Origin: Nitrospirota bacterium
GTDB lineage: Bacteria > Nitrospirota > Nitrospiria > SBBL01 > JAADHI01
NCBI GenBank assembly: GCA_029261135.1
Contig: JAJDBX010000006.1
Span: 128,123-192,122 of the forward strand
Reading direction: 5' to 3'
Length of the DNA: 64,000 bases
In this document: one piece after another, positions 45,062 to 63,772 of the stretch
How the letters are laid out: each line of letters starts with the position of its first letter
Position numbering within the stretch: position 1 is the first letter of the stretch
Translations under genes and position numbers: made by a program
The notes under the pieces: generated by a model
What the model saw: the letters and a program-made list of their open reading frames with translations, nothing else
What the model was told of the DNA's origin: nothing
Database searches by the model: none

Positions 45062-45340
45062 CTACTCGCTTTCAACAAGCGTTCTTTTAAAACCGATTTT
45101 ACTAATTTCAAATCCCTCTTTAATTTGGTCAATTGGAACCATTTTAATCGCATGATGTTTGGCTAAATCATCACAGATGCCCACACATATCTCACAGCCT
45201 TTACAACGGTCAACTGCAACGTATGCAGTGCCTCGGATTTCGTCATAAAGAATGGTATTTCCTTCAGGACAAAATTGTGTGCAGAGACGGCATTTTGTGG
45301 CACCACAAATTTCTACATCAATATCTGCTACTGAATACAT
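45062..45340 (-). CDS. porD: Ferredoxin-type delta subunit of 2-oxoacid:ferredoxin oxidoreductase
   Basis: The 92-residue protein binds two iron-sulfur clusters. The second motif CKGCEICVGIC is a standard C-x2-C-x2-C-x3-C. The first, CGATKCRLCTQFC, has four residues between its first two Cys instead of two. It passes electrons between ferredoxin and the catalytic subunits. It is the last gene of the por operon (E-A-B-G-D). GAGGACGAT lies before the ATG. Confidence 0.85.
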   Translation of the reverse strand: MYSVADIDVEICGATKCRLCTQFCPEGNTILYDEIRGTAYVAVDRCKGCEICVGICDDLAKHHAIKMVPIDQIKEGFEISKIGFKRTLVESE

Positions 45341-45370
45341 ATAATCGTCCTCCTGCTTTCTACTGAAAAC

Positions 45371-46111
45371 TTAACCGACAGTTGCAGACTCTGCAGACTG
45401 TTGGGCTTTTGTTATACCTTCGGCAGCCAACTTATCCCAACTTCTTTCAAGGGCAAAATCACGCGCGGCTTGTGCAACATCATTATTCTTTGCCACCAGC
45501 TCTGCTTTTTTTGCAAATTTTCGTTCAATAACATTGTCAAGCGCAGCTGTACCACCCGAAACAACAATCCCTTTGCCGACAAAACGCTCCTTGATGGACT
45601 GCGCTATCGCAGATGGACTCGGCATGCCTAAAATCGCTGCAACTGCCCCGACCATGGCCATGTTGGTCGCCAATTCTGTCCCAGCTACATCAACAGCAAG
45701 TTTCGACGCAGGCACGTGAAAAACCTTGGCATTCATATCATCTAATTCTTTTTCTTGGTCTCGGGCAAGCGGGACAACTGTTTCACTATTAATAATCACA
45801 ACCCCGTTGGGTTTCAATCCCCAATAAAAGGGCATCGTATAGGATTTTCCGTGGGTAATCACTTGTGTATGAAAAATCACGATGACGTTAGGGTAAATAA
45901 TTTCGCCAATCTCATAGATCACATCTTCTGAAATTCGGACATAACTTTCCACTGGGGCCATCCGTTTTTCAGAACCAAAGAAAGGCACCATTGTACTTTC
46001 ACCTTTATCGATGATGACACCATTACTTAGTACATGAGAAGCGGTCACAACACCCTGGCCACCAATCCCTGCCATTCGTACACTATACCGCTTCGCGCTC
46101 GGTACTGACAT
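45371..46111 (-). CDS. porG: 2-oxoacid:ferredoxin oxidoreductase gamma subunit
   Basis: This is the gamma domain of the pyruvate/2-oxoglutarate synthase family: RMAGIGGQGVVTASHVLSNG, STMVPFFGSEKRMAPVESYVRIS and AAILGMPSPSAIAQSI. A much longer frame opens in porB (to 46,264), but ATG 46,109-46,111 follows GAGGAGGAAAGAT and begins the conserved domain, so the 246-residue form is used. It assembles with the alpha, beta and delta products. Confidence 0.9.
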   Translation of the reverse strand: MSVPSAKRYSVRMAGIGGQGVVTASHVLSNGVIIDKGESTMVPFFGSEKRMAPVESYVRISEDVIYEIGEIIYPNVIVIFHTQVITHGKSYTMPFYWGLKPNGVVIINSETVVPLARDQEKELDDMNAKVFHVPASKLAVDVAGTELATNMAMVGAVAAILGMPSPSAIAQSIKERFVGKGIVVSGGTAALDNVIERKFAKKAELVAKNNDVAQAARDFALERSWDKLAAEGITKAQQSAESATVG

Positions 46112-46139
46112 ATCTTTCCTCCTCGAATTGTTACTCAGA

Positions 46140-47018
46140 TTACTTTTTTTCAGCTTTACGAAGACGCTTTCTTTCTTTTTCGCTCTCCTCCCAATAGGCT
46201 TTTGCATCATCACTAAAATATTCCACAAAGCCGTAGCGATCTTTTTCGACGTCTCTCGCATCATCCATTACCTTGGGCGTTGGAATCGCGTACTCAATAT
46301 TGCATGACGTATAAGCTTGGATGAAGGTTGGCCCCACTTCGCGCGCAATCAGAACAGCTTTACGAACCGTATTGGCCACACGAGTCGGGTTTGTCGGGGC
46401 AATCCGAGCAGTGTAAGCGACCCCTGCCGTCTTTGCCAGACCGAGCATATCCATTTTCTCAAACTTTTTACCGGTCGGTGCCATCTTCATGACCATGCCT
46501 TTTTGGGTCATGCCACTGTCTTGGCCACCGGTATTCCCATACACCTCATTATCAAGCATGATGGTCGTAAATTTTTCTTTTCTAAACCAACTGTGCATGA
46601 CCCCATGAAAACCAATATCCGCAAGGCCACCGTCACCTGCCATTACAACGACATCTTTTGGTGTATCAGGAAAACGAATATCAAGACCTCTTTTAAGACC
46701 GCTTGCGACCGCATTGGTATCACCATAATTCCCATAAATAAAAGGCACTGCCCCTTGTGAAATAGCAAGCCGGCCACAACCCGCTGTACCGCAAATCACC
46801 GTATGCTCAAGGCTAGGAAGTCCTAGATAAACGAGGCGAATAAAGAGCGTCATGGCGCAACCCGAACACATCGGATGCTCCTCAATCACCTCTTTAAAAG
46901 ACCCTAATTCTGAAACCTTTCGTTGTTTAAAAAATGGACCATCTTCTAGTAAATCCTGGTATTCTTTTGGCAAGTAATCTTGAAAACCTGGTGCAGCATT
47001 AATTGTTTTTAAAGACAT
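46140..47018 (-). CDS. porB: 2-oxoacid:ferredoxin oxidoreductase beta subunit (TPP-binding)
   Basis: The beta subunit carries thiamine diphosphate and a [4Fe-4S] cluster. Cys pairs in HPMCSGCAMTLFIR and CGTAGCGR fit cluster ligands. The TPP/Mg2+ motif is VMAGDGGLADIGFHGVMHSW with DNEVYGNTGGQDSG. The 292-residue length and order fit five-subunit enzymes of Aquificota and Nitrospirota. In the reductive direction it carboxylates acetyl-CoA to pyruvate; the alternative substrate succinyl-CoA cannot be excluded. Confidence 0.9.
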   Translation of the reverse strand: MSLKTINAAPGFQDYLPKEYQDLLEDGPFFKQRKVSELGSFKEVIEEHPMCSGCAMTLFIRLVYLGLPSLEHTVICGTAGCGRLAISQGAVPFIYGNYGDTNAVASGLKRGLDIRFPDTPKDVVVMAGDGGLADIGFHGVMHSWFRKEKFTTIMLDNEVYGNTGGQDSGMTQKGMVMKMAPTGKKFEKMDMLGLAKTAGVAYTARIAPTNPTRVANTVRKAVLIAREVGPTFIQAYTSCNIEYAIPTPKVMDDARDVEKDRYGFVEYFSDDAKAYWEESEKERKRLRKAEKK

Positions 47019-47031
47019 ACAATAACCTCCC

Positions 47032-48294
47032 TTATCTCTCGTTGGAATCCTTAATCGTTTCCAAAATCAATTCTGTCGGCATGGTCATACCACCGTAAAC
47101 CCTTGGGCCACCAACGACACGATCAGTTCTCTTAATGTTGGCTTTGATTTCCTTCGATAACCATCCAACATAGTTAAACTCAGGCACAACAATTTTATCC
47201 GCATGATCAAGCGCCTCGTCAAGTTCTTTCCCTGGAAAAGGCCGAAGTGATTTCACCTTAATTAAGCCCACATCCAAGCCTTGTTCTCCAGCCTGACGCA
47301 CCGCTTCACGTCCTTGGGAAACCGCAGCACCGGATGCAACAATCATCGTTTTTGCTGTCGGATTGACTATTTCAATCAGTCCCCCCAACCAGCGATCAAG
47401 CCATTTTTTCGCACGTTCCTGCGCAGACCAAATTTCCTGCTGCCACGACGCATGCATCTGATAAGAAATGAAGTTTGATTTTTGGATGGGGGCATCACGC
47501 GCGATTCGTATCGGCGGATTTTCATTATCCATCATCGGAACGGCTTCATGATAACAATCACGGGGCGGCAACTTGATATCTTCCGCCGGCATACTGACCC
47601 AGCCACGTGCGTGTGTCACAAAAAAACCATCAACGGCTACTGCCGCAGGAAGTGTGACCTCTGGCTTTTCGCTCACCATGAATGCCACAAGCGGGAAATC
47701 ATAAAAATCCTGCTGATTTTCACCATGAAGCACGATGCCGCCGGCATTTAAAAGATAGGAAATCTCGACATTATCCGGCTGTATTGCCAATGGGGTATTC
47801 ACGACGCGGCACATCACGAGCAATACCGAAGGGAGTCGTGCCCCCGGCCATGAGACAATCGCCTCAAGGCCACGCATTAAACCAGGTCCCGCCGTAGCGG
47901 TGAGACAACGAACCCCAGATCGAGACGCACCGGCAATCGCTGACATGACGCCAATTTCTTCCTCACCCCGATAGTAATCCTTGATATAGCCTTCCGCGTA
48001 AAGATAACCGACCTGCTGCATGGTTTCGCTCTGAGGGGTAATCGGATAAGCAATGGCGATATCCACATTTGCACGGCGAATCGACTCTTTCGCGGCTTCA
48101 CTTCCCGTAATAAACTCCTTCTTCCGAGGCGCTTCTAAAATGAGATAGTCAGGATCAACCACACGTTGTGCGGCAGCGCCCTTCTTCTCTTTTTCAATTT
48201 CTTCCTTTCCTGGTGCTGGGGGCGAAGCGACACGATCTCTCGGATCATCTTGCCTCAACTGAGGCGTTGTGGCTTCTTTTGTTCCATCACTCAT
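47032..48294 (-). CDS. porA: 2-oxoacid:ferredoxin oxidoreductase alpha subunit
   Basis: The alpha subunit contains the pyrimidine-binding domain (FITGSEAAKESIRRANVDIAIAYPITPQSETMQ) and a transketolase-C-like domain (KIVVPEFNYVGWLSKEI). A charged, Pro-rich N-terminal extension of about 45 residues precedes the domain. With 420 residues it is close to PorA of five-subunit enzymes. It lies between porE and porB, 13 bases from the latter. Confidence 0.9.
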   Translation of the reverse strand: MSDGTKEATTPQLRQDDPRDRVASPPAPGKEEIEKEKKGAAAQRVVDPDYLILEAPRKKEFITGSEAAKESIRRANVDIAIAYPITPQSETMQQVGYLYAEGYIKDYYRGEEEIGVMSAIAGASRSGVRCLTATAGPGLMRGLEAIVSWPGARLPSVLLVMCRVVNTPLAIQPDNVEISYLLNAGGIVLHGENQQDFYDFPLVAFMVSEKPEVTLPAAVAVDGFFVTHARGWVSMPAEDIKLPPRDCYHEAVPMMDNENPPIRIARDAPIQKSNFISYQMHASWQQEIWSAQERAKKWLDRWLGGLIEIVNPTAKTMIVASGAAVSQGREAVRQAGEQGLDVGLIKVKSLRPFPGKELDEALDHADKIVVPEFNYVGWLSKEIKANIKRTDRVVGGPRVYGGMTMPTELILETIKDSNER

Positions 48295-48312
48295 TACTTA
48301 ACCTCCCGCCGT

Positions 48313-49068
48313 TTATTCGGCTGTTTCGTCTAATCCGGTTTCTAATTCATGAGCAAAAGCAGCCGTCACACCCGCTCCGACTGATTCATCCTCGGGTTTT
48401 TCAATATTTCCTCCAGACAATCTTGATATTTGAGCCCATCCGGTTGGGACAATCCCTTTTCCTTCGTACAAGGGCTTAATCCCATTTTTCTTAACTTTTA
48501 TAATAGCATCACGAAAACGTACCAGTTTTTCAATGTCAAAATTGGGGACAGAGCACATCGCATCTTCATGACCCGCTTCAGCACAGAGTGCAATGGTGTA
48601 ACAGTTCGTTCCCGCACGCACCATCCTCAGGGTAATATTCGCGTAGTGGCAATGCACACCTATAAAAACACAGGCTTCAATTTTATTATGCCAAATGGTC
48701 AGGTTGGGATGGCAGGGGTTGATCACCGCTTCCGGATCAATTTTCGGGTAGATTGGACGGTAGTCCGGCATGGGAATAATCCGTATGCCAGGCAACTCAT
48801 GGGCCACATCAAAAAAATACTTGGCTTTATCATTTGTATGATCATTCCAACCCCAAAGTACCAGAGGACCGGGGAAAAGCGTGGCATTTTTTCGAGTCAA
48901 CAAGGCAATTGCCGCCTTTTCGAGAGCCTCGGCTTCGTTTACAATTTTCCCCTCAACTAGACCCTCACCTTCTTCAGGGAGAGGCACACCCATAATAGTC
49001 GCTGCAGGTGGAAGAATACCTTCCGGCCCCGGAACAACAGCATACGAACTTTCTTTAACTTGCGCCAT
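48313..49068 (-). CDS. porE: Extra subunit of five-subunit pyruvate:ferredoxin oxidoreductase (PorE-like)
   Basis: The 251-residue protein is the first gene of the operon. It has no Cys cluster motif. It contains an N-terminal Pro/Gly-rich part (GPEGILPPAATIMGVPLPEEGEG) and a Rossmann-like core (LVLWGWNDHTNDKAKYFFDVAHELPG, IPMPDYRPIYPKIDPEAVINP, VFIGVHCHYANITLRMVRAGTN). Similar proteins, often annotated as CODH beta-family, accompany por genes in Hydrogenobacter and Nitrospira; I recognise it on that basis. Its role in the complex is unclear. AAAGGAGTTATA precedes the ATG. Confidence 0.72.
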   Translation of the reverse strand: MAQVKESSYAVVPGPEGILPPAATIMGVPLPEEGEGLVEGKIVNEAEALEKAAIALLTRKNATLFPGPLVLWGWNDHTNDKAKYFFDVAHELPGIRIIPMPDYRPIYPKIDPEAVINPCHPNLTIWHNKIEACVFIGVHCHYANITLRMVRAGTNCYTIALCAEAGHEDAMCSVPNFDIEKLVRFRDAIIKVKKNGIKPLYEGKGIVPTGWAQISRLSGGNIEKPEDESVGAGVTAAFAHELETGLDETAE

Positions 49069-49159
49069 TATAACTCCTTTAGATTAATCACCAGATTGCT
49101 ACTTTACGATAACTATTTTCATTAGCAGGAAATGTATAATTGAAACTCAAATTTTTAAC

Positions 49160-49189
49160 ATCATAAGTCAGCACTGAAAGGCTTGTCAA
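49160..49189 (-). promoter_or_regulatory. Sigma70 promoter of the por operon
   Basis: On the minus strand TTGACA (49,184-49,189), an 18-base spacer and TATGAT (49,160-49,165) form a near-consensus promoter. Transcription would start around 49,153, with a leader of about 85 bases before porE. Confidence 0.68.
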
Positions 49190-49409
49190 TTCTAAAAAAT
49201 ACGCAATTATCAAGTTCAGGCTTAGAAGGCGATAAAAGAATAAGGTATTTATTTTCATATATTTGAATGTGTTTCAAAATGAGAAGGTGCTTCCAGACAA
49301 ACTCAATCTCTTTTCCTTAATTTTCCCATATCCTTCACAACCTTCTTTAACCTATAAGATCAATCCCATCTCTATTAATATACCATGTACGCTTCTTTGA
49401 TGTGATTTC

Positions 49410-49486
49410 ACTTCAGCTCTTTCGTTTTAACTTCAGTACATTTTCAAGAAAACTGAGACAGACTTCAAATTTATAATTTTCTTGAA
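49410..49486 (+). promoter_or_regulatory. Repeat-rich candidate control region of the DAC operon
   Basis: ACTTCAG occurs at 49,410-49,416 and again 20 bases later at 49,430-49,436; ACTTCAA follows at 49,462-49,468. A perfect 10-base inverted repeat, TTCAAGAAAA (49,443-49,452) with TTTTCTTGAA (49,477-49,486), flanks a TATAAT (49,472-49,477) that could be the -10. The 20-base phasing suggests a dimeric regulator on one DNA face (inference). The rest of the gap from 49,190 to 49,538 shows nothing else. Confidence 0.35.
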
Positions 49487-49538
49487 GAGAGGCCTTCACC
49501 TGTTATTTAATATTTCCCGAGACTAGGCATAATCCTAT

Positions 49539-51278
49539 ATGAATACACAAATTCCGATTTTGGTTTTGATTTTGCCCTTTTTTGCAGCCTTCTTCATCCC
49601 GCTGTTGTCGGGGCGTCTCGGTGAAAAAGTGTCGAAAATTGGAATCACCGCTCAAAGTATTTCTTTTCTTATCTCCATTTTGACCCTCTATCACCTGACG
49701 CGCCATCCCCCAATCCGGACATCCCTTTTCCCTGATCTAGCCACTGCTAATCCACTCTTCGGCTTCGGTCTTTATATCGACCGTCTCTCGGCAGTGATGA
49801 TGGTCTTGGTGACCGGGGTCAGTACGATCATTCATGTATTTTCAAAGACATACCTCCACCAAGATCCTGGCTATGCGCGTTTTTTCTCACTGCTTTCTCT
49901 CATTACCTTTGCACTGCTCGGCCTCGTGACGAGCCCGAATCTCATCATCTTTTTTATCTTCTGGCAACTCATCAGCTGGTTGCTCTACCTTCTTCTGGCT
50001 TTCAACTACACCCATCATGAGACCTGCCGCGCCGCGTTTAAAACATTCATTATTTTTAGGCTGGGTGATCTTTTTTTTCTTGCAGGTATTTTTTTGGCCT
50101 ACCATTACTATGGCACGCTCGACTTTCCGCTCCTTTTTGAAAAAGCGTCGGCTTCCAATATTACACTTTCTCTCTTCCCCGGCGATCTCATTGAAATCAA
50201 TGTCGTCACCGCAATTTCATTACTGATTTTTGTGGGTGCGATGAGCAAGTCTGCTCAGTTTCCTTTACATGTCTGGCTCCCGGACACCATGTTCGGGCCT
50301 ACCCCCGTTTCGGCTTTGATGCATGCCGGTATCGTCAATTCTGGCGGATTTCTATTGAACCGGCTTGCGCCCCTTTATGGTTTGTCCCCGGTAAGCCTTA
50401 ATATTGTGTTTATCTTCGGCGCCTTTACGACAGTACTTGGTGCAAGCATGATGCTGGTACAGAACGACGTCAAAAAGATGCTGGGCTACTCTACCATTGC
50501 ACAAATGGGCTACATGATCATGGAGTGTGGCCTGGGGGCATTTGCTTTGGCCATTTTTCATTTTATCGCCCATGGACTCTTCAAAGCCTCATTCTTTTTG
50601 AGTGCCGGAAGCGTGATTCATACAACACGGGTCGAACCGAAATCACCTAAACTGCCAAAGACCGTGCAAGGTTTATCCGGACCTAAACCTGCTATGGTCT
50701 TTTCCCGCTTAATCTGGTTCACGGGCTTTATCGTGACACTTATTCTTCCTCTGATCATTCTATTTTCTGCCCACGACGTCTTTCACATTCCCTTGAATGA
50801 CGAGGCGCACGGCGCAGTCATCTTTCTCTTTTTTGGATGGGTGACCTCTTCACAGGCCATTATCAGCATTTACCGGATGAATGCGACTGCCTCTTGGAAG
50901 GTCATTGGGATAATGCTCTCGGCCCTTGCCCTCATTATTTTCACCTATCTCTTCGCTGGTGAGCTGTTTACCGTTTTTCTCTACCCCGGACCTGGAGAAT
51001 CTGCGTTATACTTTGAAGCGGCAGCCTTACCAGCGGCACTCTTCGATTCCCTTGTCATTTTAACTTCAATTACGATTATTTCTGTCTGGGTTTTTCTCTA
51101 TGCTAAGGCCCGTGGTCGAGAGATATTGATGCCCTCATGGATCAATCCGCTTAAAGAACGATTTTATGTCCTTTTCGTGAATCGGCTCTATCTCGATCTT
51201 TTTTACCAAAAACTTTCTCGAAACGTGATCCAAGTGGCGCACAAACTCGACAAACGTTATCTCTCATGGCTGCCTTAA
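49539..51278 (+). CDS. NuoL-like membrane subunit of a DAC inorganic-carbon transporter (DabB-like)
   Basis: The polytopic protein (579 residues) belongs to the NuoL/MrpA proton-conducting family. The core lysine and histidine helices are intact: MSKSAQFPLHVWLPDTMFGPTPVSALMHAGIVNS and LGYSTIAQMGYMIME...FHFIAHGLFKASFFLSAGS. It lacks the long lateral helix of true NuoL. In DAC systems DabB couples cation influx to the carbonic-anhydrase-like DabA, and the dabA gene lies two genes downstream. The start is weakly marked. Confidence 0.82.
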   Translation: MNTQIPILVLILPFFAAFFIPLLSGRLGEKVSKIGITAQSISFLISILTLYHLTRHPPIRTSLFPDLATANPLFGFGLYIDRLSAVMMVLVTGVSTIIHVFSKTYLHQDPGYARFFSLLSLITFALLGLVTSPNLIIFFIFWQLISWLLYLLLAFNYTHHETCRAAFKTFIIFRLGDLFFLAGIFLAYHYYGTLDFPLLFEKASASNITLSLFPGDLIEINVVTAISLLIFVGAMSKSAQFPLHVWLPDTMFGPTPVSALMHAGIVNSGGFLLNRLAPLYGLSPVSLNIVFIFGAFTTVLGASMMLVQNDVKKMLGYSTIAQMGYMIMECGLGAFALAIFHFIAHGLFKASFFLSAGSVIHTTRVEPKSPKLPKTVQGLSGPKPAMVFSRLIWFTGFIVTLILPLIILFSAHDVFHIPLNDEAHGAVIFLFFGWVTSSQAIISIYRMNATASWKVIGIMLSALALIIFTYLFAGELFTVFLYPGPGESALYFEAAALPAALFDSLVILTSITIISVWVFLYAKARGREILMPSWINPLKERFYVLFVNRLYLDLFYQKLSRNVIQVAHKLDKRYLSWLP

Positions 51279-52573
51279 TGGAGACCACAATTAATCTTTC
51301 TCAAGTTTTGATCATACTCCCCATTTTAGGGGCCATTTTAGGCTTAATCTTCCGGCACAAACCCAAGGCTTTCATGCTTTACTTTCAGGGGATGGTTGCC
51401 ACAGAACTCGTCTCCCTTATTATTCTTTCAGATTTTCTTGCAGGGTCCGTGACCCTTCCACTTTCGTTCATTGTCGTTTTAGCAGGCGCCTGCATTACTT
51501 TAGGGCGGCACTTGGAATCCACGTCTCCCTTTGACATTTTTGAAACGTTCATCCTCATGGGACTCGGACTCGGGTTTTTGCTGAACCCGAACAACTTGGG
51601 GCTTATTTTTTTAATTGGGCTCTTCGCTCTATTGATCGTCATTCAATATCGAGCAAAAGGCTTTTCAGACCTCAATACACGATGGGTCGTCGGGCTTTAC
51701 GGAACCGGCATCGTTTTTCTGAGCACTTCTTTATCTCTTTCCGGTCAAAGCCAACAGGTCGTTTTATTCCTGGCTTATGCGATGCTGCTCCCGCTTTTCC
51801 CGCTTCATGGGGCATACCTCTCCCTTCTTAATTGTTTATCAGGGGTGCTGCCCGCATTTCTGGCCGTTTTTCTACCCGTATTGGGCCTACATGGACTTCT
51901 ACCTCTCTTGTCCTTCCTGCCCGATGAGATCAAGCAGGTTATCCTGTTTTGCGCCATGCTAGGTGTCATCATTGCTTCCCTGCGCGGCTTGGTCCAAATT
52001 CGCATTTCAAATATCCTATCTCAAACCGCCCTCGTCTTTTGGTCAATCTTATGGTGGTATCTTTGTGGTTCTGACATAAAACCATCTGCAGGCATTATTT
52101 TTCTAAGCTCAGCCGGCTTCGCACTCTGTGGACTTTTTCTAAGCGGACACACACTCAAATCACGTTATGGAGATTTACTTGTCGATCAATTTGGGGGACT
52201 CGGATCAGTGATGCCGCGCTTTTCCGTCCTTTTTGTCTTGCTCATCATGGCCGGCATGGGGCTGCCTTTATTCGGGGTTTTCTCCGGCTTTATCGCGATG
52301 GCCTTCAGCCCTTCGATGACCTTTTCTTGGAGTCTGGCCATTATTTTATTGGCCTGGTTTTTTGCTTCATGGCGACTTCCCTTACTTATGCAAGGTACAC
52401 TTTTTGGAAAATCAAACCCGAATTGGATTTATCGTGATTTGGATCTGCGAGAAACCACCGCACTATCATTCATCCTAATTGTTCTGCTCATTTTGGGCCT
52501 CGCCCCCGATGCCTTCTTTGGGCTTGAACACCTCGATGAAATCCCCGTCGCCTTAATGAAAGCTGTAAGATGA
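51278..52573 (+). CDS. Degenerate NuoM/N-like membrane protein inserted in the DAC operon
   Basis: The 431-residue protein has about 12-14 membrane helices and resembles antiporter-like subunits. At the helix where NuoM-type proteins have K-x-P-x-x-P-x-H, the sequence is YAMLLPLFPLHGAYLSLLN: the Pro-x-x-Pro-x-His core remains but the channel Lys is gone. The second half is also divergent. ATG 51,278 overlaps the upstream TAA (TAATG); ATG 51,266 is an alternative. It ends in an ATGA overlap with dabA, so all three proteins are co-translated. I do not know a named function. Confidence 0.7.
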   Translation: METTINLSQVLIILPILGAILGLIFRHKPKAFMLYFQGMVATELVSLIILSDFLAGSVTLPLSFIVVLAGACITLGRHLESTSPFDIFETFILMGLGLGFLLNPNNLGLIFLIGLFALLIVIQYRAKGFSDLNTRWVVGLYGTGIVFLSTSLSLSGQSQQVVLFLAYAMLLPLFPLHGAYLSLLNCLSGVLPAFLAVFLPVLGLHGLLPLLSFLPDEIKQVILFCAMLGVIIASLRGLVQIRISNILSQTALVFWSILWWYLCGSDIKPSAGIIFLSSAGFALCGLFLSGHTLKSRYGDLLVDQFGGLGSVMPRFSVLFVLLIMAGMGLPLFGVFSGFIAMAFSPSMTFSWSLAIILLAWFFASWRLPLLMQGTLFGKSNPNWIYRDLDLRETTALSFILIVLLILGLAPDAFFGLEHLDEIPVALMKAVR

Positions 52574-55500
52574 CCTTACAAAAGAAGAAACACTATAGCG
52601 ACACGTCACGGATGAGATTGCTAGGTCTGGTTAAACTGGCGAGTGAACGAGTCGCCGTAACCTGGCCGATGCATACCTTGATTCAGCAGAATCCCCTCCA
52701 CGACCTCGAAGACCTTCCATTCAATAAAGCCGTGGTTCAGGGAAAACTTCAGCAAGGTGGGGAAGGCTATCTTTCGAACCCCATTTATCGGAGATATTAC
52801 CAGTCGGGCCGTATCCTTCAAAAACACCTGGATACGGCACTTCAAGCCATCGCATCCCAGAATAAAATCTCTTTGGCAAACCACACTCTCACGCATCTCG
52901 AAGTTCTGCGTGCCCACTTTATTCATGGTTTCTCTGCCCCTTCACCGGAAATACTCGAAACAAGCATCGAAAACCATTCAGATGCTCTGTTGATCAAAAA
53001 AATTGCAGACCGCTTTTACGCCTCCATTCAACCAATTGATATTGCAAGGGAAATCGATACATTTACGGAGGACTACCATTCCGGGCTCGGCCGGTGCCTG
53101 AGCCTTTCAGGATGGTTTGATCACATTTTTGGGACAGAAATTTCTGAGAAAATCAATCAAGAGATGATCAAATGGTGTCTTCCTTTTTTAGACGAAGGAC
53201 AAGCCCCGTGGCCTTTTCCTTTCCGGGAGAAGGGGCTGTTTCAATCCTGGAAAATAATGGCTTCACACGAATGGGACTTCGGCGGCATTCCCAAGATGCG
53301 TAAAAAACTCCTGGAAACACCGGATCTCGCAGCAGATGCCCTTCTTGAAAGCTTGGAAAAATTAGGCATTCCGGAAGAAGCATGGCAAGATTACTTAGGC
53401 ATGCACCTTTCGGCGCTTCCCGGCTGGACTGCCTTTATCAAATGGCGCACCGAGCATCATGATTATCGGTGGCAAGAAGCCTACCCCATTGATCTCGTTC
53501 AGGTTCTGGCCATTCGGCTTTGGTATGAACGTGAACGACTTACACCGTTTAGCCGAGAGTTCATGGATTCTGACGGCACGATGCAGGCTATTTTAGCCTT
53601 TACTGAATCATATCCGAAGACCTTATTCTTACTACGGGAAAGGACGGAAAAGCGTCTCTCCGCAAGCGATGCAAAAGCTGTCGATCATCTGAGCGCATTC
53701 CCCTTAAGGTCTAATTATCACGCATGGGAAACACTCGCGGATCAGTACGTTGAAGAAATACGGACAAAAAATGTCTTGATGGCTTCTCTCTCTGCGGCAT
53801 GGCGTCTTGTTTCACTCATAAAAACCCTCGACTGTTCTCCCGAGACCCTCTTGAAAAGCCATCCAAAAGACTTGAAGCAATACATTGACTGGATTGACGC
53901 CGCACCGGAAACCACACATGGTCCGGTTTGGCTTGAGGCTTTTGAGGCCGGCTACCAAGAAGCACTCATCAAAAAGCTAAGGAACAATACAGAGGAAATC
54001 CAAGTATTAAAAGAGAAGAGGCCTCATGCGCAAGCGGTTTTTTGCCTCGACGTCCGTTCAGGGTCTTTTCGAAGACATTTAAAAAAAATTGGGCACTATG
54101 AAACTTTTGGTTTTGCTGGTTTTTTTACGGTCTTCATCCGATATATGGCTTTTGATCGCCATCATGAAACCGATCTATACCCTGCAGTCGTAAAAGCCAA
54201 AAATACGGTAAAAGAAATTCCGCGGCCTTCCCAGAAAGAAAAAGTGCCTCGTTATCACGCTGGGGCCGCATTGATCCATGCGGCCCATACCCTGCTTCAT
54301 GATCTTAAAGAAAATGTCATCACCCCATATGTCATGGTGGAATCTATCGGGTGGTTTTTCGGCATTCCGCTCATCGGGAAAACCCTTTTTCCTAGCGCGT
54401 ATCAAAAATTTTCCCGTTGGCTAAGACAGCACCTTGCCCCTCCGGTTGCCACAACAATGACAATCGACAAGTTAACACGGGAATCGGTCGAACTGGTGAT
54501 TTCCGCTGAACAACAGGTCGTTATCCAAGAGGCATTGTACAAGTTAAACCCTGGACACAAGAAATCAATCGATCCTAAAATAATCGGGACATTAAGAAAA
54601 ATGGCCCTGGAGGAAGGCACCTCCAAAGAAGCTCTCGACCCAACAAAACATCAAACACTCACACGCTTTTTCGAGACTCCTGAAGCCCTCAATGATTTTG
54701 TTCAAACGCTTAGAGAGGATCATTTCATCACAGAAGCATGGGCTTCTGCCCGGATGGAGCGAATTACAAGAACAGGCTTTAGCCCAAATGAGCAGATCTT
54801 TACCGTTAAAACCGCACTTAAGGCGATGGGACTGACAAAAAATTTCGCGAAGCTGGTCCTTTTTTGCGCTCATGGCAGCACATCCGACAACAACCCCTAT
54901 GAAGCGTCGCTGGATTGCGGAGCTTGCGGCGGAAACCCAGGCAATCCGAATGCGCGAGTATTCGCTGCGCTGGCCAATAAACCCCACGTACGGGAACACC
55001 TGAAAACTGAAGGCTTCCTTATCCCCGAGGACACTCATTTTATCGCAGGACAGCATAATACCACGACAGATGAGGTCGTCATCTATGACATTGAAGACCT
55101 TCCCCCTTCTCACAAAAAAGCCTTGGCTCAACTCATGGTGGATCTCAAACAAGCGGGTTTGCGGAATAGTCAGGAACGATGCGGCAGATTTCCGGATATC
55201 ACCTCTAAACTCGATCCGGAAGCGTCAAATATCGAGGTCATCCGCCGAAGCACGACTTGGAGCCAAACGCGTCCTGAATGGGGACTCTCAGGAAATGCGG
55301 GCATGGTAATTTCGAGAAATCAACGAATCGAAGGGGTCGATATGAACGGCCGGGTTTTCCTCCATTCATACAATTATAAGGAAGATCCAACAAGCCAGCT
55401 ATTAGAAATCATCATGACAGGCCCCTTAGTTGTTGGCCAGTGGATTAACATGGGGTATTACTTTTCTTCAACCGATAACAACGTCTACGGCAGCGGCAGT

Positions 55501-55794
55501 AAGATATATCATAACGTGGCAGGCCGGATTGGCGTGATGCATGGCTCCACGAGTGATCTCCGCATAGGACTCCCTTCTCAGACGGTTTTTAACGGGGAGA
55601 TGCCTTACCACGAACCCATGCGCCTTTTTACGATCATTGAAGCGCCTAGAACACATATTCAAAAAATAATTTCGAGACATCGCGTATTACGAGATTTTTT
55701 CGATAACCAATGGGTTCATCTCGTCGCCCTTGAAAACAATCAATTTTACCGTTATCTTCCTAAAGGAACATGGCGTGAAGAAAAGGAATCATGA
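52570..55794 (+). CDS. dabA: DabA-type (DUF2309) inorganic-carbon transporter subunit, long form
   Basis: DabA is a vectorial, beta-carbonic-anhydrase-like protein that hydrates CO2 in the cytoplasm using energy from DabB. The N-terminal signature WPMHTLIQQNPLHDLEDLPF is present. The zinc site is intact: Cys492 and Asp494 (FCLDVRSG), His768 (CAHGSTSDNNPYE) and Cys783 (LDCGACGG). The 2- and 15-residue spacings equal those of Halothiobacillus DabA (C351/D353 and H524/C539). At 1074 residues it is longer than that protein, with about 140 extra residues before the site and about 100 between the pairs. It is translationally coupled upstream. Confidence 0.92.
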   Translation: MTLQKKKHYSDTSRMRLLGLVKLASERVAVTWPMHTLIQQNPLHDLEDLPFNKAVVQGKLQQGGEGYLSNPIYRRYYQSGRILQKHLDTALQAIASQNKISLANHTLTHLEVLRAHFIHGFSAPSPEILETSIENHSDALLIKKIADRFYASIQPIDIAREIDTFTEDYHSGLGRCLSLSGWFDHIFGTEISEKINQEMIKWCLPFLDEGQAPWPFPFREKGLFQSWKIMASHEWDFGGIPKMRKKLLETPDLAADALLESLEKLGIPEEAWQDYLGMHLSALPGWTAFIKWRTEHHDYRWQEAYPIDLVQVLAIRLWYERERLTPFSREFMDSDGTMQAILAFTESYPKTLFLLRERTEKRLSASDAKAVDHLSAFPLRSNYHAWETLADQYVEEIRTKNVLMASLSAAWRLVSLIKTLDCSPETLLKSHPKDLKQYIDWIDAAPETTHGPVWLEAFEAGYQEALIKKLRNNTEEIQVLKEKRPHAQAVFCLDVRSGSFRRHLKKIGHYETFGFAGFFTVFIRYMAFDRHHETDLYPAVVKAKNTVKEIPRPSQKEKVPRYHAGAALIHAAHTLLHDLKENVITPYVMVESIGWFFGIPLIGKTLFPSAYQKFSRWLRQHLAPPVATTMTIDKLTRESVELVISAEQQVVIQEALYKLNPGHKKSIDPKIIGTLRKMALEEGTSKEALDPTKHQTLTRFFETPEALNDFVQTLREDHFITEAWASARMERITRTGFSPNEQIFTVKTALKAMGLTKNFAKLVLFCAHGSTSDNNPYEASLDCGACGGNPGNPNARVFAALANKPHVREHLKTEGFLIPEDTHFIAGQHNTTTDEVVIYDIEDLPPSHKKALAQLMVDLKQAGLRNSQERCGRFPDITSKLDPEASNIEVIRRSTTWSQTRPEWGLSGNAGMVISRNQRIEGVDMNGRVFLHSYNYKEDPTSQLLEIIMTGPLVVGQWINMGYYFSSTDNNVYGSGSKIYHNVAGRIGVMHGSTSDLRIGLPSQTVFNGEMPYHEPMRLFTIIEAPRTHIQKIISRHRVLRDFFDNQWVHLVALENNQFYRYLPKGTWREEKES

Positions 55795-55837
55795 TCCAAA
55801 AGAACAACCCTCATTTTTTAAGGAAGGACTATAACAA

Positions 55838-56185
55838 ATGACTGAATTAATCCTGTATCAAATGAAAGAGATTCGAATCATTATCCAAGGTGAACACGTC
55901 GGATTTATCACCGAGCTACTCGACAATATCGAGGCGGGAGGATACACCATTATTAGTAATATTTCTGGAAAAGGCCATCATGGCGTTCACACTGCACACC
56001 CCATGTTCAACGAAATAGACAGCATGCAAATGGTGATGACTGTCGTGCCAGAGAAAAAAGTAGAATCTATTCTTGCCGCTTTAAAGCCTATTTTCCCCCG
56101 CTACCCCGGCATCATGCTTGTCTCGGATGTCTCAGTGACCCGAGCGGAATATTTTTCGAATCCGTCTCAGGAAGAAACAAAATAA
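55838..56185 (+). CDS. PII-like signalling protein of the DAC operon
   Basis: The 115-residue protein has the ferredoxin-like PII fold: beta strand EIRIIIQGEHVGFITELLDNIE, a T-loop region GKGHHGVHTAHPMFNEID, and MQMVMTVVPEKKVESILAALKPIF. The T-loop lacks the uridylylated Tyr of GlnB/GlnK. PII-like proteins next to DUF2309 or bicarbonate transporters are known; they sense adenine nucleotides or bicarbonate. It starts 43 bases after dabA and likely belongs to the same transcript. Confidence 0.82.
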   Translation: MTELILYQMKEIRIIIQGEHVGFITELLDNIEAGGYTIISNISGKGHHGVHTAHPMFNEIDSMQMVMTVVPEKKVESILAALKPIFPRYPGIMLVSDVSVTRAEYFSNPSQEETK

Positions 56186-56946: not shown

Positions 56947-57318
56947 ATGATCACCAATGCACCCCCTATAAACTATATTCCTATCTTTGTTTTCATCGTT
57001 GTTTCTCTTGTATTCGGCATCGGGACACTGGTCATCAGTTACTTTGTCCAAGTTCGAATCGATGACCCCGAAAAACTGTCCACATACGAGTGCGGAAGCG
57101 AACCCTTTTCCGACGCACGAAGTCCTTTTCCTGCGCGTTATTACATTATCGCCATGCTCTTTGTGATCTTTGATGTTGAGGTGGCCTTTCTCTATCCCTG
57201 GGCCGTTGTTTTTGACAAGATTGGACTCTTTGGATTAGTAGAAATGATTATCTTTATTGCGCTTTTCCTCGTTGCCTATGTGTATGCCTGGAGAAAAGGA
57301 GGACTTGAATGGGACTAA
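56947..57318 (+). CDS. nuoA: NADH:quinone oxidoreductase-like subunit A
   Basis: The 123-residue protein has three membrane helices and the family motif [44 protein letters not shown], including the functional Cys loop. It starts the complex I-like operon and overlaps nuoB by 10 bases. No clear ribosome binding site or promoter was seen before it. Confidence 0.95.
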
Positions 57319-57788
57319 CCGGGAAATTTGAAGCTAATTTTGTCACATTAAAATTAGATCAAGCCGTCAATTGGGCGCGAAAAGGTTCGCTTTGGCCCAT
57401 GGTCTTTGGACTTGCCTGCTGCGCCATAGAAATGATCGCAGCCGTTGCATCACGTTATGATATGGATCGATTTGGCGCCGGCATCTTTCGGGGTTCTCCA
57501 CGACAATCGGATCTCATGATTGTCTCTGGTACCGTCTGTCGGCGCATGGCCCCGGTGATTCGGAAGGTTTATGATCAGATGCCGGAACCTCGGTATGTCA
57601 TTGCAATGGGATCCTGCGCCACCTCCGGTAATTTTTATGATACCTATAGCGTCGTTCAAGGCGTGGATCGTTTTATACCCGTGGACATTTACGTTCCCGG
57701 TTGCCCGCCAACCCCGGAAGCACTTTTGGAAGGATTGATGCGGCTACAAGATCAAATTATGAAAAAGAAGGTGTTTGTAAAAGCATGA
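57309..57788 (+). CDS. nuoB: NADH:quinone oxidoreductase-like subunit B
   Basis: NuoB holds cluster N2 at the quinone site. The ligands are clear: [10 protein letters not shown] (adjacent Cys), [11 protein letters not shown] and [15 protein letters not shown]. The length is 159 residues. It overlaps nuoC by an ATGA junction, the usual compact layout. Confidence 0.96.
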
Positions 57789-58321
57789 AGCGCATCAAAC
57801 CCTTCAGAGTACCGCGTGGCATGGAGAACGGCCAAAACCATGCTTTGGCTAAAAAGATTCAACTGGATACATCCGAGTCATATCGAGGTGCGACCTTGTT
57901 TAGAGGAGACCTTTCTGTGCATATTAAGAGAGAAGGGCTTCTTCAGGTTTGCCGGCTTTTAAAAATAGATCCGACCCTGGACTTTGATTACCCGGTTCAC
58001 ATTACTTCTGTGGATTATCCGAACGATCCTGAGCGCTTTGAAGTGGTTTACGAGTTTTTTTCGATTAAAAAAAAGCACCGTATCCGTCTTAAAACCCGCG
58101 TGCCCGAGGACGACTGCACCATTGAGTCGGTCACGTCCATCTGGGCCGGTGCAAATTTTTTAGAACGAGAAGTATACGACATGATGGGTATTCGATTTGA
58201 GGGCCATCCTGAATTAAAACGTATCCTACTACCCGATGATTATGACGAAGGCTATCCCCTTCGAAAAAATTTTCCGATTCAAGGGCGAGGTTGGCGAGAT
58301 CGCTTTGATTTCCCTGTTTAG
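57785..58321 (+). CDS. nuoC: NADH:quinone oxidoreductase-like subunit C
   Basis: NuoC is a soluble peripheral-arm subunit. The protein shows [73 protein letters not shown], the diagnostic stretch. The ATG at 57,785 overlaps the nuoB stop; a frame open to 57,701 is a shadow inside nuoB. It is not fused to nuoD. Confidence 0.95.
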
Positions 58322-58338
58322 AAGAAGGATGAACTGAC

Positions 58339-59562
58339 GTGGCTGTAGAAACACCGGAAACGCGAGAGGACAAAAAAACACTTCCCCTCCTTAAGACCGA
58401 AGAGCTTCTGCTGAACCTCGGCCCTCAGCACCCTTCTACCCACGGGGTACTCAAGGTAATTCTCACCCTTGAGGGAGAAAAGGTGGTTAAATCAGAACCG
58501 GTCTTGGGCTTCTTGCATCGGGGTGTGGAAAAAATTGCAGAAACCATCACATACAACCAGTTTATTCCTCACACAGATCGGCTCGATTACGTCTGTGCAA
58601 TGTACAACAACTTTGCTTACGTCCGGGCCGTTGAAAAGTTTCTAAATATTACGATACCCGAAAGAGCTGAATATCTCAGAACCATCGTTGCCGAAGTACA
58701 ACGCATTATCGGGCATCTTTTTTGGTTGGGGACTCAGGCACTTGATATTGGGGCGATGACCGTCTTTTTCTACACATTCAGGGAAAGAGAAGCCTTACTT
58801 GATCTTTTTGTGGAGCTTTGCGGCGCACGGCTCACCACCAGTTGGTACCGCGTCGGCGGCGTTGAACGTGATTTCACACCCAAGTTTATTGAAGGCCTTT
58901 ATCAATTCATCGAGACATTCCATACTAAAATTGAAGAATATGACACGCTCTTGATTAATAATCGAATCTGGCTGGCCAGAACAAAAGACATTGCCATTAT
59001 TTCGGGGGAGGACGCGGTGAATTATGGTCTCTCAGGATCTGTATTACGAGGTTCCGGGGTCGATTACGACTTAAGAAAAGTGAGTCCCTACGGTGCCTAC
59101 GACAAGGTCGAATGGACTGTGCCTTTGGGGAAAAAAGGAGATACTTATGACCGGTATTGGATCCGTATGGAAGAGATGAGAGAGAGCACGAAGATTATCA
59201 AACAATGCCTCGACCAACTACCAGAAGAAGGGGGCTACAAGGCTTATCTGCCTAAAGTGGTTGCGCCGGATAAAGAGCGGGTATTTACCGATATGGAAAG
59301 TATGATTTACCAGTTTAAACTGTATTCGGATGGATTTAAAGTACCAGAAGGTGATATTTATTGCGGCACTGAGGCCCATAAAGGAGAACTTGGGTTTTAT
59401 ATCGTGAGCCAAGGCGGTGGAAAACCTTATCGGCTAAAAATTCGGGCCCCTTCTTTTATTCATATGGGCGCATTTGATTTTATGTCAAAGGGATATATGA
59501 TCGCAGATGTTATTACAATCTTTGGCACCTACGATATTGTGATGGGGGAGTGTGATCGTTAA
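58339..59562 (+). CDS. nuoD: NADH:quinone oxidoreductase-like subunit D
   Basis: NuoD forms the quinone cavity with NuoB. Motifs: LGPQHPSTHGVLKVILTLEGEKV, GFLHRGVEKIAE, DRLDYVCAMYNNFAY and the C-terminal MSKGYMIADVITIFGTYDIVMGECDR. Length 407. A GTG start (58,339) is used. As in respiratory complex I, the four hydrogenase-type Cys ligands are absent. Confidence 0.96.
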   Translation: MAVETPETREDKKTLPLLKTEELLLNLGPQHPSTHGVLKVILTLEGEKVVKSEPVLGFLHRGVEKIAETITYNQFIPHTDRLDYVCAMYNNFAYVRAVEKFLNITIPERAEYLRTIVAEVQRIIGHLFWLGTQALDIGAMTVFFYTFREREALLDLFVELCGARLTTSWYRVGGVERDFTPKFIEGLYQFIETFHTKIEEYDTLLINNRIWLARTKDIAIISGEDAVNYGLSGSVLRGSGVDYDLRKVSPYGAYDKVEWTVPLGKKGDTYDRYWIRMEEMRESTKIIKQCLDQLPEEGGYKAYLPKVVAPDKERVFTDMESMIYQFKLYSDGFKVPEGDIYCGTEAHKGELGFYIVSQGGGKPYRLKIRAPSFIHMGAFDFMSKGYMIADVITIFGTYDIVMGECDR

Positions 59563-59564
59563 AG

Positions 59565-62351
59565 ATGAGTAGCGTCGGAAAGCAAAGTGCTGCACCGGAT
59601 GCAGTCAAAAAGTTGGTTGAAATCACCATTAATGGAGAAGTGGTCACGGCTGAAGAAAATTCTTCACTATTTAATGCCGTGAAATTAACCGGAGTTGAAC
59701 TACCGGCGATGTGTTACCACTACAGCTTTTCTCCCTTTGGATCCTGCGGTCTTTGCCTCGTCGAGGTTGAAGGCAAGAAAAACAACGTCCGCGCCTGCAC
59801 AGCAAAAGTGCTTGAAGGGATGGTGGTCAGCACAGGAACCGACAAGATGGTCGAAGCCCGAAAAGGTGCCGTAGAAAAGCACTTAAAAACACATCCGCTC
59901 GACTGCCCCGTCTGCGATAAAGACGGGCAATGTGAACTACAAGACATGGCTTACGACCTTGAAGTCTATGACATTGCAGAGGGAAAACGGAAACAAATCC
60001 CTGAAGATACACGCAGTACCGTGCTCGATTTCAATATGGAACGCTGCATTCTTTGCGGTCAGTGCATCAACGTCTGCAAAGAAGTGCAGCTCGTTGACGC
60101 CCTCTGCTTTTATAAAAAAGACAAACAGAAACATGTGGGTGCACATGGAGGAGAAGAACTTTATTGTGAATTCTGCGGGGATTGCCTCGCCGTCTGTCCC
60201 GTGGGTGCCATTGTTAGCAAATTCTCAAAGTTCACCTTCAAACCCTGGCAACTCAAAAAAACGGAAACCACCTGTAGTTTCTGCTCTGATGGCTGTAGCA
60301 TCACTTTAGAAACCACGCAAAAAGACATTCAAGTCGTCACATCCGAACTCTCCTATACCTCAAAATTTGGCTTTGATGTTGAACCCGGCGACGGACATGG
60401 CGGTATCTGTGTCCGCGGACGTTTTGGATTTGACTATGTCATGAGCAATGAGCGTTTATCTCAGCCCATCACAAAAATCAACGGCAAGTTTGAACCCGTG
60501 TCCTGGTTCAATGCACTGATGGAAATTGGGAAACGCTTAAAGAGCATTAAAGAAGTGCATGGCGGGAAATCAATCGCTGCATTGGTGAGTGGGCGTTGTA
60601 CAAATGAATCTGTTTATCTCTTCCAAAGACTCATGCGATCAGTCTTAGAAACAAACAACATAGATACCGCCGCACGTTATGGCCATATGAATTCTGTGCT
60701 GGCCATGCAAGAGGCTTTAAAAATTGGTAAAGGCACCGTCACCCATCAAGAGCTTGCGCTTTCTGATGCCATTTTGATAATTGGCTCTAACCTGACAGAA
60801 ACAAATCCCATCACCGCGCTTCGGCCCAAAGCCTCGATGACGGAGTTCGGCGGTAAGTTGATGGTCGCCGATACCAGTAAGACAAACATGCTCAATCTTG
60901 CGACACTACCACTCCAGATCGGGCTCAATTCAGAATCCCTTTTCATTCAAGGATTGATCAAATCGGTCATTGAACAAGAATTTGTAGACTCTGAATTTCT
61001 TGAAAATTACCCTGAAGCCTATGACGCACTTAAAAATGCGGTTGCACTTATTTCTGAAAGTCTCATTACCGAACAAACGGGGCTTGAGTGGGAAAAAATT
61101 ACGGAAACGGCAGAAGCGCTTGCCCATTCAAAACGCGGCGTCCTTCTTTGGGGAGAAGGCATTATTTCAAAACCGGGGGCTTACGATAATGTCTTACTGC
61201 TCATCGACTTGGCCCTATTAACCGGTCTCATCAGAAAAGAAGGGGCGGGTCTCTTCCCTATCTGTGAAGAAAATAATGAACAAGGCGCTGTGGATATGGG
61301 TGGCGTTCCCGAATTTCTACCAGGGCAGATTCCTTTTTCATCTGAGGAAGACCGGAAACGCTTCTCATCAACATGGCACACGACCTTGCCAGAACCATCG
61401 GCCGATGCCTTAGGCTTGACGCTGCCGGAAATCATAGAAGCGGCGCATCGCGGCGAAATCCATGCGCTCTATGTGGTCGGTGAAAATCCATTGGCTTCTC
61501 TTCCGGCTGAAATGAAGGTGAGAGAAGCCCTAGAGAAGATCGATCTCATCATTTGCCAAGATCCATTTTTAACAGAGACGGGAGAGATGGCCGACTATGT
61601 TCTTCCCGCATCTGTCTTTGCCGAAAATGAAGGGAGCTACACGAACGTCGCCGGAGCGGTCAATCGGGTTTCAGAAGCCTTCGACCCGCGTGGAGAAGCG
61701 CGTCCCGACTGGAAGATCTTTACAGATTTATCAAAACATCTTGGACACCCGATTCAATACCGCTCTGTCGAAGAAATCTATCAAGAGATCGTAAAAATGG
61801 TTCCAGGATACTTCCGTGGAAACAAACCGATTGCTCAAGCGGATAATTATTTAAACAAGCGCTTCATTGAAAATATTTCAGATCGCTATGCAGTCCACTC
61901 AGAGACAAGCCAGTCTGATCCGCCGACAACATTATCTTTAGAACAGGTACTTTATCACTCCGGAAAATTGACGACACGCGACAAACAACTCATGGAAATT
62001 GACAGTAAGACTGCCTTAAAAATCAGTGAAGCCGATGCAGAAGCACTGGGCGGCCTCGTTACGGGCGATCCGGTGAACATTAAATCAGATTTAGGCCAAT
62101 TGGAAGTTGCCGTCGAGGTTTCAGAAAATTTACCGAAAGGCTTGGTACAATTTCCGCTCCATTTTAACGATCCGCCCCTTAAAGACCTTTTGAAAGTAGA
62201 AATTGATCCCTTAAGTAAAGTCATTTACTTCAAAAAAGGCAGCGTGACACTTGAACGCCCTGCCAATTTAGATCTTAAAGTCATTGAAACAAAATCAGAA
62301 ACAACAGAAGACAGTGAACCCGAAGCAGTCAAGGATGAGGAAGCATCATGA
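59565..62351 (+). CDS. nuoG: NADH:quinone oxidoreductase-like subunit G (iron-sulfur/molybdopterin-fold)
   Basis: NuoG carries electron-transfer clusters of the peripheral arm. From the N-terminus: a [2Fe-2S] domain (CYHYSFSPFGSCGLC), the His/Cys cluster motif CPVCDKDGQCELQD, two [4Fe-4S] motifs (CILCGQCINVC and CEFCGDCLAVC), a further four-Cys site starting TCSFCSDGCSI, then a molybdopterin-oxidoreductase fold to about residue 780 and a C-terminal formate-dehydrogenase-like barrel. At 928 residues it is full size. It follows nuoD directly, and nuoE and nuoF are not present in the expected place. Confidence 0.92.
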   Translation: MSSVGKQSAAPDAVKKLVEITINGEVVTAEENSSLFNAVKLTGVELPAMCYHYSFSPFGSCGLCLVEVEGKKNNVRACTAKVLEGMVVSTGTDKMVEARKGAVEKHLKTHPLDCPVCDKDGQCELQDMAYDLEVYDIAEGKRKQIPEDTRSTVLDFNMERCILCGQCINVCKEVQLVDALCFYKKDKQKHVGAHGGEELYCEFCGDCLAVCPVGAIVSKFSKFTFKPWQLKKTETTCSFCSDGCSITLETTQKDIQVVTSELSYTSKFGFDVEPGDGHGGICVRGRFGFDYVMSNERLSQPITKINGKFEPVSWFNALMEIGKRLKSIKEVHGGKSIAALVSGRCTNESVYLFQRLMRSVLETNNIDTAARYGHMNSVLAMQEALKIGKGTVTHQELALSDAILIIGSNLTETNPITALRPKASMTEFGGKLMVADTSKTNMLNLATLPLQIGLNSESLFIQGLIKSVIEQEFVDSEFLENYPEAYDALKNAVALISESLITEQTGLEWEKITETAEALAHSKRGVLLWGEGIISKPGAYDNVLLLIDLALLTGLIRKEGAGLFPICEENNEQGAVDMGGVPEFLPGQIPFSSEEDRKRFSSTWHTTLPEPSADALGLTLPEIIEAAHRGEIHALYVVGENPLASLPAEMKVREALEKIDLIICQDPFLTETGEMADYVLPASVFAENEGSYTNVAGAVNRVSEAFDPRGEARPDWKIFTDLSKHLGHPIQYRSVEEIYQEIVKMVPGYFRGNKPIAQADNYLNKRFIENISDRYAVHSETSQSDPPTTLSLEQVLYHSGKLTTRDKQLMEIDSKTALKISEADAEALGGLVTGDPVNIKSDLGQLEVAVEVSENLPKGLVQFPLHFNDPPLKDLLKVEIDPLSKVIYFKKGSVTLERPANLDLKVIETKSETTEDSEPEAVKDEEAS

Positions 62352-62914
62352 AAAAACTGCTCAAACGCGTCTTCTTTGTGGAAATTTTAAAAGCATTGAA
62401 ATTGGTTTTTGCGCACTATTTTGTCAAAGAAGTCACACTTCAATATCCTCATGAAAAGAATATATTTCCCGATACACACCGGGGGGCGCTTTGCCTGCTC
62501 AAGTACGAAAGTGGTGAAGAGCGCTGTGTCGGATGTGACCTTTGTGAAGCCGCCTGCCCCTCAAATTGCATTACAGTGGTCAGTGCGGTTGAAGAAAAAG
62601 ATCATGTCGTGAGGCGTTTTGCAACAGACTTTGACATCGATATTACAAAATGTGTCTTCTGTGGATTTTGTGTCGAAGCCTGTCCGGTGAATGCACTGGG
62701 CATGACGAAAATGTATGAATTTTCAACACCAAACAAAAGAGATCTCATTTTTGACAAAACAAAACTGTATGATGTCGGCGAAAAGTGGTATGGCCAGGCA
62801 AAGGGCTATCTCGTGGCACACAACCAAGAAGGTGAGGATGAAATCGTTAGTGAATACCGCTATCGTTTCCCCTCCTCCCGAAAACCGGAAAACGTCGTAG
62901 AAACTGATGGTTGA
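62348..62914 (+). CDS. nuoI: NADH:quinone oxidoreductase-like subunit I
   Basis: This is the two-[4Fe-4S] ferredoxin-like subunit that feeds NuoB. It has CVGCDLCEAACPSNCI and CVFCGFCVEACPVNAL, both canonical, in 188 residues. The N-terminus has an amphipathic helix for membrane attachment. It overlaps nuoG by ATGA and nuoJ by 8 bases. The gene nuoH, normally between G and I, is missing here. Confidence 0.95.
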   Translation: MKKLLKRVFFVEILKALKLVFAHYFVKEVTLQYPHEKNIFPDTHRGALCLLKYESGEERCVGCDLCEAACPSNCITVVSAVEEKDHVVRRFATDFDIDITKCVFCGFCVEACPVNALGMTKMYEFSTPNKRDLIFDKTKLYDVGEKWYGQAKGYLVAHNQEGEDEIVSEYRYRFPSSRKPENVVETDG

Positions 62915-63416
62915 ACACGCTTTTTTTATTTATTTCGCAACAGTCACAATTCTGTCTTCAATCATGACCATCGGGTTTCGTAGTCCGATCTATTGCACCC
63001 TGGCCCTGCTTTCAACCCTGCTTCATGTCGCAGGACTTTTTGTGCTACTAAATGCAGAGTTTATTGCCGCAATCCAGATCGTCGTTTATGCCGGTGCCGT
63101 TCTGGTGCTTTATCTCTTTGTTTTGATGCTTCTGAATTTAAAAAAACCGGAAGATTTTGTACACAAACAGGTGTGGATCGCCCTTTTTTTTGGTGTCATC
63201 CTCCTGATCGAAATCCTGATCGGTCTCTTCAAATCACCTCTTTTTACAAAAGCGCCCCTTGCAATGACAGAAAGCGTCTCCGAGTTGGGCAATACGGCAG
63301 CCATCGGATTCTCACTCTTTACCAAATACCTGCTCCCCTTTGAAGTGGTTGGCATGATTTTGCTGGGTGCTGTGATTGGCGCAATGGTACTCGCGAAAAA
63401 GGTCCCCACAAACTAA
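62907..63416 (+). CDS. nuoJ: NADH:quinone oxidoreductase-like subunit J
   Basis: The 169-residue membrane subunit has five helices and the family pattern SPIYCTLALLSTLLHVAGLFVLLNAEFIAAIQIVVYAGAVLVLYLFVLMLLN. The C-terminal helix is FEVVGMILLGAVIGAMVLAKK. It lies between nuoI and nuoK. Confidence 0.95.
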   Translation: MVEHAFFIYFATVTILSSIMTIGFRSPIYCTLALLSTLLHVAGLFVLLNAEFIAAIQIVVYAGAVLVLYLFVLMLLNLKKPEDFVHKQVWIALFFGVILLIEILIGLFKSPLFTKAPLAMTESVSELGNTAAIGFSLFTKYLLPFEVVGMILLGAVIGAMVLAKKVPTN

Positions 63417-63441
63417 TGTTGAATATGGACAGACTTAATCA

Positions 63442-63744: not shown

Positions 63745-63772
63745 CACCTCTTTTAGTTGATGGATTAATTTA

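Follow-up and report, generated by a model that had tools for sequence, protein, structure and literature searches.

A predicted DAB1-type DAC operon with an enlarged, NuoM-like third subunit in a Nitrospirota bacterium

Within the window, by which we mean the whole 64,000-nucleotide stretch of a Nitrospirota genome analysed here, the operon at 49539-56185 appears to encode a DAC that belongs to the known DAB1 type and has an enlarged third subunit. Its genes for DabB, the third subunit (M), DabA and a PII-like protein lie in tandem, and M is most readily explained as a NuoM-derived antiporter-like protein whose channel is dead. As far as the open-access literature that we searched goes, the new element is that the third subunit of DAB1 derives from NuoM and that its channel residues are gone in 66 of 66 homologues. 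The value lies in this identity for the third subunit and not in the four-gene arrangement itself: a hypothetical DAB1 protein can now be assigned to a family, traced to an origin and given a testable role, and a channel-dead NuoM relative turns out to be widespread in Nitrospira and to occur also in anammox bacteria and Nitrosomonas. The features of the locus are as follows.

49069..49538, no strand: intergenic region between the divergent por and dab operons, promoters presumed; no ORF found here beyond short overlaps
49539..51278, + strand: dabB, NuoL-like proton-conducting subunit, 579 aa; Proton_antipo_N/M; best NCBIfam match NuoL
51278..52573, + strand: gene for third subunit M, NuoM-like, 431 aa; alternative start at 51266 gives 435 aa
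52570..55794, + strand: dabA, DAB1 type, 1074 aa; PF10070, E 4e-253
55838..56185, + strand: gene for PII-like regulator, CPII type, 115 aa; PF00543 (P-II), E 2e-20

An earlier sequence-only reading had described this four-gene tandem, and all four ORFs were found at these coordinates, with a profile match for each. The same reading had M translationally coupled on both sides. Overlaps at both junctions bear this out, with TAATG between dabB and M, where the M start at 51278 overlaps the dabB stop, and ATGA at 52570-52573 between M and dabA, but the M start that it gave, 51266, was corrected. The start at 51278 (METT..., 431 aa) is the more likely one; in the nearest relative, too, M begins right after the dabB stop. 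The PII gene begins 43 bp past dabA.

The source genome is a 3.2-Mb draft, 95% complete, and the host is a relative of a manganese oxidiser (Ca. Manganitrophaceae). L117, a Candidatus Manganitrophaceae MAG, is the closest named relative at the dab locus; its locus and that of G004, a genome of the same genus, coincide. As had been noted from the sequence, the dab operon lies between a por operon and a complex I cluster. The por operon (45062-49068), divergent and upstream of dabB, includes a CO-dehydrogenase-beta-like gene (PF02552), and its divergent adjacency to dab is retained in three relatives (L062, L117 and L118). Because por uses CO2 and not bicarbonate, this adjacency gives no direct support for a bicarbonate pump. 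The downstream cluster contains two MrpD-like, two NuoM and one NuoN gene, a composition that fits the unusual Complex_I_3 (PMC9040806). No nuoH lies between nuoG and nuoI in this cluster (window 56947-64000; L113:896-8937), and the PF00146 matches in the source genome fall on two other contigs only. When alpha- and beta-CA were looked for in the source genome, no beta-CA was found, nor any alpha-CA above the cut-off.

The view that described DACs are two-component only, from which the sequence-only reading had started, does not hold. Halothiobacillus neapolitanus DAB1 has been published as a three-subunit DAC that includes a small hypothetical membrane protein, hneap_0908 (PMC13144422), and nuoL-ybcC operons with a downstream PII gene (clade B) and clade C ybcC operons with extra NuoM genes were reported in 2017 (PMC5700660). 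In light of these reports, a third subunit and a PII gene are not new per se. We took G460 (2,582,886 bp) to be the H. neapolitanus genome, since one of its DabAs matches the PDB DabA2 segment at 98.5% (with an approximate query). A second DAC locus in this genome (L344) encodes a DabB of 559 aa, a 248-aa protein, a DabA of 1046 aa and a PII protein of 111 aa, and its gene order is identical to that of the window. The 248-aa gene is equated with hneap_0908 on its position and not on a locus tag. Its product matches the M profile over M 161-405 (HMM E 1.4e-14) and aligns with M in BLASTP at 26% over 253 residues, which makes it homologous to M's C-terminal half.

All four window proteins have homologues in H. 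neapolitanus DAB1 (hneap_0907-0909), with global identities of 39% for DabB, 28% for M, 38% for DabA and 43% for PII, whereas the window DabB is 31% identical to DabB2. The window shares with DAB1 a third membrane subunit homologous to that of DAB1 between dabB and dabA, a PII gene 3' of dabA (55838-56185) and a long DabA. It differs in that the third subunit, 248 aa and limited to the C-terminal half in DAB1, has 431-435 aa and a full antiporter fold, and in that the por and complex I neighbours are a feature of the window. The clades of the COGNAT study (PMC5700660) are more distant parallels: clade B has the order nuoL-ybcC-PII, but its description omits any gene between nuoL and ybcC, and clade C has an additional NuoM-type gene, but its ybcC lies upstream and its NuoM often retains channel residues.

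Against Pfam and NCBIfam, M gave a weak Proton_antipo_M match and an E of 4e-16 to the NuoM model, over residues 164-420 only (435-aa numbering), and hhalign paired M 169-421 with NuoM 227-486 (E 5e-16). AlphaFold2 predicted a full NuoM/ND4 fold for M (pLDDT 86, pTM 0.89), and Foldseek placed this model at a TM of about 0.8-0.85 to NuoM/ND4. M therefore resembles the TM7-14 part of NuoM as DabB resembles NuoL, but the dab system has no redox arm and M has none of the channel residues of NuoM and complex I: TM7 Lys, TM8 Lys and TM12 Glu are missing in all 66 homologues (carried by 0/66). Their positions hold mostly L/F/M (TM7), hydrophobic or small residues or Q, with Q in most half-size forms (TM8), and F/M/Y/L (TM12). 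This loss of the channel lysines and glutamate suggests that M should not conduct. The residues that are conserved (P176, P179, P204, G207, W263, R300, G311-L312, P317, P334, F336, W364, W369, G381 and D391) look structural in character, although M could also act in another way through R300, D391 and W263/W264.

Homologues of M come as 430-aa forms (Nitrospirota, Nitrosomonas), as 250-aa halves (Proteobacteria) and as natural DabB-M fusions of 848-970 aa (Nitrospirota, anammox Planctomycetes and others), which consist of an entire DabB and the C-terminal half of M alone. In a tree of antiporter-like proteins that also held NuoM/N, MrpD, DabB and clade-C subunits, the full, 250-aa and fused forms made up a single clade (SH-aLRT 100), with a long branch for the 250-aa forms. 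Profile comparison agrees with the tree, the 250-aa profile scoring 1.5e-16 against M and 1e-4 against NuoM. Identification of M with the clade-C NuoM of COGNAT was not supported, since their tree positions are separate, though their profiles are related. That M is instead a functioning second cation channel, so that the pump uses at least two protons (or Na+) per CO2, would agree with its full antiporter fold and with the proposal of the COGNAT authors that ion number is set by the number of membrane subunits (PMC5700660). We regard this as highly improbable, given that all three channel residues are missing throughout and that the 250-aa forms and fusions wholly lack the N-terminal half of M, and a role as a second pump was rejected on the missing residues.

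The middle gene had been expected to be more than sporadic, and this proved correct. In the window's own family, 5 of the 5 DabA-bearing genomes have M either as a separate gene between dabB and dabA or joined to dabB; across relatives, DabA is present in 43 of 58 genomes. When Nitrospirota loci were picked by DabA alone, 33/43 DAB1-type DabAs were preceded by M, half-M or a fusion, a count that uses the readable upstream side only, enters once an M-less locus that was fetched twice, and leaves out three loci that were cut off and one fragment. The ten M-less exceptions all belong to family f6, and those in the tree form one clade (SH-aLRT 100). The corresponding figures were 16/16 DAB1-type DabAs in a second sample, from Proteobacteria and Planctomycetota (of which three, two from Nitrosomonas and one from anammox, were already known M carriers), and 8/8 in Halothiobacillaceae, whereas none of the 21 DAB2-type DabAs of the second sample had M. 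In all 80 named loci fetched through M, the gene either separates dabB from dabA or is part of a dabB fusion; this set is biased by design, and some of its loci are cut by contig ends.

A quick-search tree of 119 DabAs, not starred, placed the window DabA, along with the M, half-M and fusion loci, within the DAB1 superclade (SH-aLRT 91), which has one M-less clade inside it. M accompanies nearly every sampled DAB1-type DabA and no DAB2-type one, a pattern of co-inheritance with DAB1-type DabA, and the one DAB1 sub-clade without it indicates that M is no universal requirement. Among the named hosts are Nitrospira, Nitrosomonas, Ca. Loosdrechtia and further planctomycetes, and many hosts of M operons are autotrophic. 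Several loci depart from the usual layout. Orphan DabA paralogues with no adjoining dabB or PII gene form a clade of their own (L096:4707-8006, L098:7114-10413, L110:9030-12296 and L099:6748-10080), and in three gammaproteobacterial loci (L267, L269 and L310) dabA is surrounded by three or four antiporter-like genes, channel residues being retained in some of these genes. In the same-order relatives G011, G015 and G017 (L069, L073 and L074), dabA is split over at least two reading frames or contigs, perhaps through sequencing errors.

We also compared the window proteins with the two-subunit H. neapolitanus DAB2 (PDB 9rd0), whose structure is given in PMC13144422. The zinc ligands C492, H768 and C783 of the window DabA align with C351, H524 and C539 of DabA2, with spacings of 2 and 15 residues in both, exactly as the sequence-only reading had stated. 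The Asp-Arg dyad (D494/R496; D353/R355 in DabA2), the finger glutamate E591 (E444) and L906 (L658) are kept, as are all other DabA2 functional residues tested except the tunnel-bottleneck Leu629, which is Ile. A further claim, that DabA is about 240 residues longer than the Halothiobacillus protein, holds against DabA2 (827 aa, a difference of 247 aa) but amounts to 28 aa against DabA1. Length was accordingly dropped as a special trait: DabA1 itself has 1046 aa, which makes a long DabA a DAB1 trait, and M-less Nitrospira DabAs are equally long. The window DabB, a clear NuoL relative (NCBIfam NDH_I_L, E 3e-106; PF00361, E 6e-56), carries a proton path (H262, K312, S318, H341, H345, K349) that is invariant across the DAB1 and DAB2 sets, along with K237, which is nearly so. 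DAB2 differs in having neither third subunit nor PII, and in its shorter DabA.

One alternative is that the operon encodes not a carbon pump but an MpsAB-like Na+/bicarbonate symporter or a system for pH or stress homeostasis. The DAC homologue MpsAB has been proposed to be sodium-driven (work of others cited in PMC13144422), and a Leptospirillum DUF2309 operon has been tied to oxidative stress (PMC9080137). Against these precedents stand the DAB1-type placement, the complete set of zinc, dyad and finger residues, the adjoining por operon and the genome's lack of a detected beta-CA. The many autotrophic hosts (names from the loci, lifestyles from general knowledge) point the same way, and we find this alternative quite improbable.

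The explanation that we favour, and hold to be fairly likely, is a DAB1-type, PMF-driven vectorial carbonic anhydrase in which a channel-dead M docks on DabB and sets its gate and PII adjusts the pump. Structural and mutant work by others on DAB2 led to the proposed pump mechanism (PMC13144422), and residue conservation is our basis for carrying it over to the window operon. DabB would pass protons inward, with the DabA finger (tip E591) completing its periplasmic half-channel; proton flow would drive CO2 hydration at the buried DabA zinc site, and bicarbonate would be released to the cytoplasm without back reaction. We infer that M, as a non-conducting descendant of a NuoM-type protein, belongs to the complex and would dock on DabB as a structural and gating partner with a tuning role, most likely on the side of DabB that corresponds to the NuoL surface contacting NuoM in complex I. 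The proposal that one antiporter-like subunit drives while the other anchors or tunes agrees with the residues as regards a driving DabB and a non-conducting M. Natural DabB-M fusions argue for one complex and should make its purification easier. A model of a fusion had a pTM of 0.82; it was set aside as a guide to contact geometry, since its DabB part, modelled without DabA, was of low confidence.

The DabB residue equivalent to NuoL E144, a position near the membrane-subunit interface (PMC13144422), varies with the partner. All DAB1-type groups have a polar residue here: Q where M is full or fused, H/Y/Q where it is half-size, and His even in the M-less DAB1 clade, which has lost the paired Arg. 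The residue is hydrophobic (I/V/L/A) in DAB2-type DabBs, and clade C has E. The pattern fits a gate touched by M, though it is drawn from few independent clades, about four, and the polar His of the M-less clade counts against it. A bolder version, which we offer only tentatively, is that DAB1 pumps correspond to complex I membrane arms in miniature, in which M gates DabB through Q143/R174/D177/K237, with DAB1 switchable (perhaps by PII acting via M) and DAB2 locked open. If true, it would explain why DAB1 has three subunits and DAB2 two.

The PII-like protein matched only 5d4l/5d4n in the PDB (E 6e-25 for 5d4n), in keeping with kinship to CPII (PDB 5d4l-5d4p), reportedly described by Wheatley et al. 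in 2016. CPII is its nearest solved relative, and the window protein would putatively sense bicarbonate and/or adenylates. Because M genes adjoin dabA, mostly with a PII gene, and M has the conserved motifs RYGD and MPRF, M might instead serve in assembly or anchoring by recruiting DabA or PII, without setting a DabB gate. We think this unlikely: no PII gene adjoins dabA in some operons with M or a fusion (Nitrosomonas, anammox), M-less DAB1 operons retain PII, and the natural fusion partner is DabB and not DabA. Several genomes of genus g9 (family f6) have tandem dabB copies in the order B-B-M-A-PII (L084, L086, L097, L101, L102, L105 and L111).
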